Shown here one piece after another: positions 43,983-47,946 of a stretch of 64,000 nucleotides of DNA. The translations under genes and the position numbers were made by a program. Source of the stretch: Jaminaea rosea. Taxonomy: Eukaryota > Basidiomycota > Exobasidiomycetes > Microstromatales. Every line of letters starts with the position of its first letter. Position 1 is the stretch's first letter. The notes under the pieces are model-generated. The model saw nothing but the letters and a program-made list of their open reading frames with translations, did no database searches and was not told where the DNA came from. The DNA lies in NCBI RefSeq assembly GCF_003144245.1, contig NW_020289975.1, positions 2,127,496 through 2,191,495 of the forward strand, read 5' to 3'.

Positions 43983-46974
43983 CTACGCAGCCTGCTGTCC
44001 CGTGACACGCTCGCCCTGCACTAGTGTCGCCGCCCTCTCCCTTCTCTCTGTCCCATCCTCATCTTCGCCCTCAGTCGACGTGCTCTCTCCCCCATCATGC
44101 TCATCTGCCGTTGTCTCCCCCTCCGTCTCATCCCCCTCAAACTCATGCTGTCCCGCCAATCCACGGTTCCACTGCACCAGCTCACTGAGCGTCACGCCCG
44201 ACCCGCCAAAGATATCCAACGCGGACCCAAAAGTGACGTCTACTTTGCCCTTGGACAAGCGATTCACCAACTCCAGATCGCCCATGTGCCGTGCGCCGCC
44301 AGCGTAGGTACAGGAGACGCTCGCGAGTGCTGAAGGTGGGCTTCGCGGTCTCGCTGTCTGCGGTACCTCATCGTCGTTTTCGCCCTCAGTCGCTGCCCCC
44401 ACCTCTGCCCAGCCATCCGGAATCCACTCGCCCAACTTGGCCACGAGCTCCTCGTCGATCCCTCCACAGAGGCCCTCAACGTCCGCCGCATGGATCAGGA
44501 ATTCAGAACAGTACGTTGCCAGCATCTCCAGGCTCGCCTTGTTGACCTCCATGTCCGTCAGGTCCTGCCAACGATTCATGGCTACGACCCACTTGGGCTC
44601 TGCGCTCCCCTTGACTCGGCGGCAGGAGACGTCGACGACGAGCTGCTCCTTGCCCACCAGCGCGCTCAACTTCTTGAGACGCTCCATGTCGAACTTGGCC
44701 CCGGGAAAGAGGTAGGAAGTCACGATGACCTTGCTCGCCCCCTTGCTCAGCCACTCTTGTGCATTCGCCTCAGTGATCCCGCCTCCAATCTGCAGACCCG
44801 CCGGCCAAGCACGCAAGGCTTCCTCTGCCGCCTCGTCATTTCTTGGCCCGAGCTTGATAACATGCGCACCAGTCAAACCATGTTGGCGATAGAGATGCGC
44901 ATAGTATGCGGGTGAGTGCGTAGCGACAAAGTTCGTCTTGACCTGCCTAGTAGGGTCGTCGTTGGTGTCGGTGAGGGTGCCTCCGACGATCTGTTTGACC
45001 TTACCCTCGTGAATGTCGATACAAGGGCGGAAGATGCTCACGCGACGACGTCCGTGACCTGAGGCTCCGCCATGGCCTCCAAGACCGGGGCCGCCGAGCA
45101 CGTTGCTGAAACGGTCGTTGAGCTGCCTCTCCCTGTAGTAGGCCTCATCACGGAGCTGTCGCTCCTTGACTTGATCCCAAAATTCAACCACGGTCGTCGA
45201 AATGCCGTAAGCCTTGGGCGCCATCTCGTAAAGCTCTCCCTCTTTCACCACGATGCCGGGGATATCCTGCGGTTTCCTGCCCTGCAGGTAAGCGATCAAG
45301 CAGCGCAGCACGCTCGACTGGCCAATGATGAGGACATCGCTCGTGGCGCGCTCCAGCTCGAAGATGATAGGCTCTAATCGGATCGAGAGATCGTGATAAG
45401 ACTCGGCACGAGGGTAGCGATGCGCGTAAGGGTCTTTGATCTTCTTGTCCCACTCGTCGGGGAATTTGGCCCTGATCTCATCTGGTGTCAGCCCATCCAC
45501 GACTCCCGGGTTGATCTCGCTCAATTGCGAGCGTTCGATTACCCTGAAGCCTTTGTCGGCGAAGGCGAGTGTGGTGTGCGCAGAGCGTTTACGCGCTGAA
45601 GTCCATACTTCAAGCGGGCGACCAGACATGCCTGGGCCTGTTCCGGGCTCATGGCCCCCTGGTGTGAGGATCCCATCCTTCGCGCGCCGAATGCTGGCCT
45701 GCGCTGCTTGTTGGCGATGCTGAATCACGAAGTCGCAGAGGCGCTGCGAGTACTGCCAGCCGAGGGAGGAGAGGTCCGCGTCCGCCTTGTAGAGGTGGTC
45801 GATGAGGGCCTCGCCCGCTCTAGCGAGGTAGATGGTTCTCTGTCGATTGTGAATGTTCATGAGAAAGAACACTACACGACTTTGCAGGTATCCCTGAATA
45901 TTGTTGACGATGACCTGCTGCCCAACATTGATTACCTTGATGTAGGGGAACGACGGATTTTCAATGGGCTCATAGAAGCGCTCGTGTCCCTGAATGCGCT
46001 TGTAGAAGTCGGCAACGGCCTGCTCCGGATCCCAATTGACGTAGTCTGGGCTCGAGACTTTGACGCTGCGGACGTTGGCCTCTACAATGGACTTGTCTGT
46101 GCAGATGCTCTCGAGGAACATGACGTGGACGCCAAGCTTGCCGAACTTTTCGCGGATGGCGTAGCGACGGGCCTGCGTGCCGTTGTTGGCGTCGTACTAC
46201 GAGGCGAGGAGGTAGCGCAGATCAGCATCAGCTACATGCCTCAGTAAAGCAGGCTCTTGCCGCTCACTATCACCACCTGACCGCCGCCATTGAAAAAGTC
46301 GATGACCGTATCGTCGAATTCTTCGAGAACTCTACGCCGCAAAGCGTCCGTATCGGGGCTTTTGGGTCCTGCGAGCGAGGGCGTGAGGAGCCAGTCAGCT
46401 CCAATACCCACCTGCATGCCATGTTCTCAACTCACCGCTCACGAAGTCTATGCGAGCCAGAAGCAAGGCAAGGGAAGAGGTGAGTAAGGGAGCGACCGAA
46501 GCTGCGAGGGGCAAAACAACGCACAATCGGCTGGCAGCTTCTCTGCACCTCCTAAGACCTTCCTTCGGTAGTCACCCAAGCTCATCGCATCTGCTTTGAC
46601 CCCGAGCCATCTCAGATATCGCTCGAGGGCGTGGGACAAGTGAGTCTTTCCTCGGGCTGGGGGATGATGAGGGGCGGGGGGAAGGCGAAGGGGCCGGCAG
46701 TCAGCGGGATGATTTCGAGGCGCCAATTGGGCTAGAACAGAGGAGATGGCACACTCGCCTGGTAGACCGACGGTTGCAATGAGGATCTTTCCACTGCAAA
46801 GTGGGTCGTGGGAGGGTCAGTAGAGGTCCCATTGAATTGAATCTTCGCCAGGACGCACGCGTGATAAAGCTGCACAGCAGAGGGAGAGAGGGTCAGTCCA
46901 TATGAATGGGGCGATGGTGAAGTAACAGTCCCACTCACCTGGCCTGAAGCCGTCGTATACAGCGGAGCAGCCAT
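43983..46974 (-). CDS. HIS6: PFK-2/FBPase-2-like kinase fused to HIS6 (ProFAR isomerase)
   Basis: Seven exons: 46974-46939, 46869-46859, 46793-46759, 46656-46525, 46447-46436, 46368-46268, 46196-43983; all phases agree and give 846 aa. Residues 1-230 form a 6-phosphofructo-2-kinase: [20 protein letters not shown] (P-loop), [41 protein letters not shown]. Residues about 230-450 form the bisphosphatase fold, but the catalytic RHG is RAGE (235) and the second His motif reads [10 protein letters not shown]. From about residue 497 a full HIS6 follows: [94 protein letters not shown]. The linker is [18 protein letters not shown]. An acidic tail ends the protein. Exons 2 and 5 are 11 and 12 nt; intron 3 is GC-AG. 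It is divergent from HAM1. Confidence 0.87.
46657..46758 (-). other. GC-AG intron in the PFK-2/HIS6 gene
   Basis: 102 nt intron with donor CCAG|GCGAGT and acceptor CCCCAG. Only this donor restores the invariant GLPARGKTH Walker A motif, which it splits in phase 1 within the alanine codon. The donor hexamer GCGAGT is the same as in the hydrolase gene at 16330. Confidence 0.85.
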
Positions 46975-47222: not shown

Positions 47223-47946
47223 ATGGCAGCACGCAAGCAGCTCGTCTTTGTCACAGGCAATGCGAATAAGCTGAGAGAAGTGCAGCAGATCCTTCAGTGA
47301 GCTTGCAGGACCCTCGCAAACCATCTTTTCGCTCGCAGCTGAGCCTCTTGCGCCCATCCTCGCAGGAAGACGCCCGACTTCCCCTTCACCCTCACGAATA
47401 AAGCCCTCGATGTCCCCGAAGTGCAGGGTACAACGATTGACGTCGCAAAAGCCAAGTGTCGCTCGGCTGCTCGCCAGCTGAATGGGCCCGTCATCACGGA
47501 GGATACGGCTCTCTGCTTCTCTGCCCTCGGTGGGCTGCCCGGACCTTACATCAAAGACTTCCTCGGGCAACTGGGTGTAGACCGTCTGCACCTGCTCCTG
47601 GCGGGCTTCGAGGACAAGAAGGCTACGGCTGTCTGTACATTTGCATACTGCGAGAGCGCGGAAGCTGAGCCGATTGTCTTCGAGGGGAAGACAGAGGGAC
47701 GATTGGTGGAGCCGAGGGGTCAGAACAGATTTGGGTGGGATCCGTGCATGGAGGTTGAAGGTACGGGAAAGACGTATGCTGAGATGGACAGCGATGAGAA
47801 GAACAAGGTGCGTACGGGCAAGAATCCGTGTCTGTTGCCCATGATGGCCTCTGATGGTGCCGGCCTCTTCCTCATCACCGCCGCAGCTCTCTCACCGTTA
47901 CAAAGCCCTGGACCAGCTTCGCGACTATCTCACCAAGCAAGCATGA
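47223..47946 (+). CDS. HAM1: Inosine triphosphate pyrophosphatase (ITPA/HAM1)
   Basis: Three exons, 47223-47296, 47366-47807 and 47887-47946, give 191 aa, the usual size. Motifs in order: LVFVTGNANKLREVQQIL (nucleotide-binding start), VITEDTALCFSALGGLPGPY (substrate and metal acid), VFEGKTEGRLVEPRGQNRFG, GWDPCMEV, KTYAEMDSDEKNK, and in the last exon LSHRYKALDQLRDYL. The enzyme hydrolyses ITP, XTP and dITP to monophosphates, keeping deaminated purines out of nucleic acids. It starts 248 bp from the divergent PFK-2/HIS6 gene. Its stop lies only 64 bp from that of the convergent M13 peptidase gene, so their 3' UTRs probably overlap. Confidence 0.96.

Follow-up and report, generated by a model that had tools for sequence, protein, structure and literature searches.

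Can a single fungal gene encode both the enzyme that sets fructose-2,6-bisphosphate and an enzyme of histidine biosynthesis? The question is raised by a locus on the minus strand of a 64,000-nucleotide stretch of the Jaminaea rosea genome (the window), which a preliminary description had read as a fusion of 6-phosphofructo-2-kinase (PFK-2) to the isomerase HIS6. Our analysis bears out a one-gene fusion: the frame is open, a spliced model of 846 amino acids carries three domains (Table 1), and eight further proteins span the same junction.

The last exon alone comprises 737 open codons and a stop, and Pfam places 6PF2K, His_Phos_1 and His_biosynth together in its one frame. We set the exon borders by hand, guided by the Sympodiomycopsis kandeliae protein P0004. 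In the resulting spliced model, translation starts at ATG 46974, and the introns measure 65–102 nt, five with GT–AG borders and one with GC–AG. The mass of the model agrees with the product of roughly 93 kDa predicted earlier, and the sequence likewise supports the fusion borders given there. The HIS6 part opens with the motif FRPCID at 45032. The last in-frame methionine ahead of this motif lies at 45224 (EMAPKAYG), in agreement with the preliminary description; the spliced model has no in-frame ATG from there to the motif, and the next in-frame methionine, at 44687, is already within HIS6. The loop inserted in HIS6 is read here as coding, a small in-frame intron being the alternative. A gene of the Ham1 (inosine triphosphate pyrophosphatase) family, at about 47397–47810 on the plus strand, is divergent from the fusion gene, so that both might be driven from a common promoter region.

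Table 1. Features of the fusion gene, in window coordinates
Feature	Position	Strand	Details
PFK-2/HIS6 fusion gene	43983..46974	-	7 exons, 846 aa, 93.5 kDa
Exons 1-4	46974-46939, 46869-46859, 46793-46759, 46656-46525	-	
Exons 5-7	46447-46436, 46368-46268, 46196-43983	-	
Intron 3, GC-AG	46657..46758	-	Interrupts the Walker A motif GLPARGKT (spliced model)
6-Phosphofructo-2-kinase domain	45846..46974	-	Pfam PF01591; GLPARGKT and YDANNGT; six 5' exons and start of the last
Bisphosphatase-like His_Phos_1 domain	45204..45845	-	Catalytic His replaced: RAG for RHG, GQSS for GHQ
Met434	45222..45224	-	Last in-frame ATG before HIS6; context TACGAGATGGCG; candidate internal start
Linker	45042..45125	-	28 residues in the window protein; 13-28 among nine fused proteins
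HIS6 (ProFAR isomerase) domain	44160..45041	-	TIGR02129, 373.6 bits; matches yeast His6 (2agk) in sequence and in fold
Variable inserted loop within HIS6	44313..44417	-	Length differs among fused members
Acidic C-terminal tail	43986..44159	-	58 residues, 31% Asp+Glu, pLDDT <50

The N-terminal half has the hallmarks of a kinase. The last exon by itself scores 135.5 bits against 6PF2K (Pfam cut-off, 27), and both kinase motifs are retained in the spliced protein. The preliminary description recognized the bisphosphatase-like domain that follows but passed over the loss of its catalytic histidine: the first is now alanine and the second glutamine, leaving the protein without the RHG ... His active site of a bifunctional PFK-2/FBPase-2. 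Because this histidine is gone, the PFK-2 half is probably kinase-only, as judged from its residues. The first histidine is absent from 37 of 38 aligned PFK-2 rows, so that the loss of the phosphatase predates the fusion; the second is retained in rows outside the smut group. The window protein thus resembles kinase-only fungal PFK-2s, which we take to be of the Saccharomyces cerevisiae Pfk26/Pfk27 type, in its 6PF2K domain with Walker A motif and in a His_Phos_1 domain that, like those of other basidiomycete rows, lacks the first catalytic histidine; it differs by a whole HIS6 enzyme at its C terminus. The sole row to keep the first histidine is a second PFK-2 gene of the same genome (G000:C12:364417-365179, minus strand; L001), which has both RHG and GHQ and presumably encodes a bifunctional or phosphatase enzyme.

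The C-terminal half is a complete HIS6, a core biosynthetic enzyme. The domain passes the NCBIfam model hisA_euk (cut-off, 229.3 bits; Table 1), and among solved structures it is closest, in sequence as in fold, to yeast His6 (2agk) and Medicago HISN3 (9fcf). The aspartate of CID, at the end of strand 1, aligns with the position changed in the D57N mutant of Medicago HISN3. Both this residue and the aspartate of VVDxSC, which we take to be the second catalytic aspartate of HIS6/HisA, align with their counterparts in 2agk and 9fcf and are invariant in the nine fused proteins. The window enzyme therefore shares with the yeast and Medicago proteins a full-length TIM barrel with the catalytic aspartate in place; it differs in having no start codon directly ahead, in sitting behind PFK-2, and in its acidic tail and longer loop.

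The fused copy is also the only HIS6 that we found in J. rosea, which answers a question raised by the preliminary description. A search of the 21-contig, possibly incomplete assembly with the HIS6-domain protein, at E values up to 1, returned the fused copy only. The genome has five His_biosynth matches, one of them the fused copy and two of them pieces of HIS7. The remaining two were considered as a second HIS6 and set aside, as their translations read as IMP dehydrogenase and an FMN-dependent dehydrogenase. The other pathway genes covered, HIS7, HIS1, HIS3 and HIS4, are present; HIS7 lies on contig C14 and matches a J. rosea protein at 100% identity over 98% of the query. Given these genes and no second HIS6 found, the fused copy would have to supply the HIS6 step if J. 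rosea is prototrophic for histidine.

Is the fusion peculiar to this assembly? Eight other proteins (P0002–P0008 and P0122) span the PFK-2/HIS6 junction in frame, although as protein records they are open frames by construction, which biases the set towards unbroken junctions. P0002–P0008 come from the best 120 of 313 matches to the exon protein, and P0122 was added from the best 120 of 8000 matches to the HIS6 domain. The eight are 72–81% identical to the window protein. In P0002–P0008 the bisphosphatase-like domain is joined to HIS6, and P0002–P0005 include the kinase domain too; P0122 begins at a methionine before HIS6 and yet spans the junction. P0006–P0008 and P0122 are partial records. 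P0004 is an annotated S. kandeliae record of 802 amino acids with all three domains, and the other seven carry the source tag lgn, which we take to mean metagenome assemblies. The order Microstromatales includes Sympodiomycopsis, and Jaminaea belongs to it as well. Proteins of J. rosea and of Parajaminaea phylloscopi do occur in the searched database. None named for either species stands among the best 120 of 313 matches to the fused query or the best 120 of 8000 to the HIS6 query; the models deposited for them at this locus could be divided, absent or of a length that the search did not admit.

Phylogenies point to a single event. Among 48 HIS6 rows selected for one tree, the nine fused rows cluster together (support, 100/99), and no unfused row falls inside the cluster. 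A second tree, of 38 selected PFK-2 rows, likewise unites the five fused rows that are long enough into one group (100/100); both trees use subsets of the fetched proteins. In the PFK-2 tree this group lies, with weak support (85/63), near one unfused row and the Exobasidium and Meira rows in which PFK-2 is followed by a CS/NudC-like domain. Several species have inherited the fusion by common descent, and the linker has diverged between them, the pattern of a conserved gene fusion; the fusion looks old and conserved in a small group of yeast-like fungi. Separately, P0014, P0290 (Adiantum nelumboides) and P0125 (Golovinomyces) are smut-like fungal proteins filed under a fern or a powdery mildew and are probably contamination of those entries.

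The junction itself evolves differently from the domains that it joins. Linker lengths in the nine proteins are 13, 13, 14, 20, 21, 21, 25, 28 and 28 residues, and the mean pairwise identity is 0.30 in the linker, as against 0.88 in the bisphosphatase-like domain, 0.65 in the helix after that domain and 0.81 in HIS6; the kinase part gives 0.68 (15 pairs, partial rows). Were the 183 linker codons random and independent, the chance of meeting no stop among them would be about 0.0017, a value that is only indicative given that the rows are related and the protein records open by construction. No methionine occurs within 20 residues ahead of the HIS6 motif in seven of the nine proteins, the exceptions being P0004 and P0122. 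We modelled the last-exon protein with AlphaFold2 from a 59-row alignment, the N-terminal part of the kinase lying outside the model (mean pLDDT, 79.3; pTM, 0.58). HIS6 and the last-exon part of PFK-2 fold like their solved relatives, and the segments with pLDDT below 50 include residues 367–380 (the linker) and 681–737 (the tail). The model fits folded units on a flexible tether, with relative domain placement uncertain at this pTM.

One residue upstream of the linker sets the fused proteins apart. The codon of Met434 lies in the context GAGATGG, with G at both -3 and +4. Whatever the frame, the closest ATG on its upstream side starts 113 nt away, and translation from Met434 would yield 413 amino acids (44.7 kDa). 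All nine fused proteins have methionine in this column; the 98 PFK-2 proteins without HIS6 never do, having instead Val (58), Ile (33), Cys (6) or Leu (1). These 98 rows are the 113 proteins P0009–P0121 less 14 HIS6 proteins without PFK-2 and less P0049, which lacks the site; they include four PFK-2–NudC fusions. The fused set is invariant in 222 of 328 columns, and only in this one is the fixed fused residue absent from all 98. When the comparison is confined to the 32 nearest relatives (P0009–P0040), 351 columns contain six fixed replacements, this one included.

Several explanations other than a single fused product have to be weighed against these data. An assembly error that deleted a stop or merged two loci is practically ruled out, as the same in-frame junction recurs in eight other sequences at 72–81% identity. 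It is highly improbable that two genes have been read as one, with a frame open by accident and separate mRNAs and proteins. That no protein named J. rosea stands among the best 120 listed for either query speaks for two genes, but the PFK-2 frame continues into HIS6 in nine proteins across a gap of merely 13–28 codons, seven of the nine lack a nearby methionine ahead of HIS6, and the independent S. kandeliae record joins both enzymes. Met434 raises a different possibility, a gene with dual output, in which a shorter transcript and an internal start at this codon give a HIS6 of 413 amino acids and 44.7 kDa beside the 93 kDa protein, so that HIS6, with a short N-terminal extension, could be made without PFK-2. 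The specificity of Met434 to fused proteins (9/9 versus 0/98) makes such a separate product of about 45 kDa possible, as do its place as the last in-frame methionine, its G -3/G +4 context and the distance of the nearest upstream ATG. We nevertheless consider dual output rather unlikely. Since five other columns also show fixed replacements against the 32 nearest relatives, the methionine could quite possibly have arisen by chance, for which a single Ile-to-Met change is enough; the comparison was made after the site had been seen; P0122 begins at Met434, which biases one of the nine rows; and P0004 and P0122 have another methionine closer to HIS6. It is more doubtful still that, through two outputs, the cell would set the share of the histidine enzyme that is tethered to a glycolytic signal enzyme.

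The remaining alternative concerns what a single product does. The preliminary description had offered both a tie between fructose-2,6-bisphosphate signalling and histidine/AICAR flux and simple co-expression. In a coupled protein, PFK-2 would sense ProFAR, PRFAR or AICAR, or HIS6 would sense the glycolytic state, for example through RRVS at the junction (residues 493–496 of the window protein), which resembles a protein kinase A site; yeast Pfk26 is controlled by protein kinase A near its C terminus. A [RK][RK]x[ST] motif lies within six residues of HIS6 in six of the nine fused proteins. All four NudC-fused rows also have such a motif in the PFK-2 tail, as do 10 of the 28 unfused rows (the tail could not be located in 3 of the 28). 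The same motif is, however, found in half of the free HIS6 rows (11 of 22) and in 7 of the 17 GST–HIS6 rows, and therefore probably came with HIS6, which weakens the case for RRVS as a newly arisen protein kinase A site. Three of the nine fused proteins lack it, PFK-2 and HIS6 have no metabolite in common, and each takes other fusion partners in related fungi. We thus judge regulatory coupling improbable. The fusion, its borders and its size stood as first described, and relatives share the fusion. Coupling and co-expression are indistinguishable here, and plain co-expression is the more economical reading.

Starting from the observed gene anatomy, both sets of motifs, the loss of the phosphatase site, the single HIS6 found and the one fused clade, we consider it likely that a kinase-only PFK-2 was fused once with HIS6, yielding a bifunctional protein with independent active sites whose two activities are co-expressed. 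Neighbouring PFK-2 and HIS6 genes on the same strand would have lost the intervening stop and start, and the fusion would then have gone to fixation in the common lineage of Jaminaea and Sympodiomycopsis. A full-length protein of about 93 kDa would now be made from a single promoter and a single ATG; in it, the N-terminal half is predicted to make fructose-2,6-bisphosphate and the C-terminal TIM barrel to convert ProFAR to PRFAR, with a flexible linker between two enzymes whose active sites act independently. Such independence points to co-expression. The PFK-2 and HIS6 reactions have no common metabolite, so the expected effect would be joint expression in a 1:1 ratio and not channelling. Most likely, the arrangement arose incidentally from gene packing and has co-expression as its effect.

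HIS6 and PFK-2 have each acquired foreign partners elsewhere in these fungi. Many smuts, Ustilaginales and their relatives, have GST–HIS6 proteins (P0044, P0056, P0057 and others), in which the HIS6 N terminus is likewise joined through a short linker to an unrelated enzyme, glutathione S-transferase; the partner differs, and in the HIS6 tree the GST rows stand apart from the PFK-2-fused clade. Some rows without GST fall among the 17 GST–HIS6 rows. The Pseudozyma hubeiensis record P0123 seems to begin inside GST, its start probably being misplaced, and a Moesziomyces antarcticus record named actin (P0090) combines GST, HIS6 and actin domains, probably as a merged gene model. The PFK-2 proteins of Exobasidium and Meira (P0009, P0013) belong to the same subfamily as the window protein and also carry a foreign C-terminal domain, in their case a CS/NudC-like domain where the window protein has HIS6. 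PFK-2 with such a C-terminal domain was seen in P0009, P0011, P0013 and P0014. In the J. rosea genome no CS domain lies next to PFK-2, the three matches being on C9, on C4 and at C1:2298 kb.

Chains of histidine enzymes are well described: like the window protein, hisIE, hisHF/HIS7, hisNB and HIS4 place a histidine enzyme in one chain with another (excerpts of PMC1963479 and PMC7284861), but they link histidine enzymes to one another, whereas here HIS6 is linked to PFK-2. The PMC1963479 excerpt gives five fusions (the hisA/hisF elongation, hisIE, hisHF, hisNB and hisIED) and counts hisA among eight fused his genes solely through internal duplication (gene elongation); that of PMC7284861 gives seven fused his genes, hisA not among them. 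In the main text of PMC4921024, neither hisA nor phosphofructo gave a match. Among the titles and abstract openings listed for searches of open-access PMC, we found no report of a PFK-2/HIS6 fusion; open-access PMC likewise returned no paper on phosphofructokinase-2 with NudC or on a bifunctional GST/histidine-biosynthesis fusion in Ustilago. A foreign partner for HIS6 has precedent, since smut GST–HIS6 proteins carry a bifunctional annotation; what is new, as far as these searches reach, is PFK-2 in that role.

In the excerpts of PMC1963479 and PMC7284861, none of the fusions described joins hisA to a foreign gene, and here, in one fungal lineage, its counterpart HIS6 is encoded together with PFK-2, which sets fructose-2,6-bisphosphate. 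The fusion thereby bears on whether the joining of unrelated enzymes is neutral packing in a small genome or a regulatory link, and the repeated fusions at the PFK-2 C terminus and the HIS6 N terminus in related fungi amount to a natural experiment in gene fusion.
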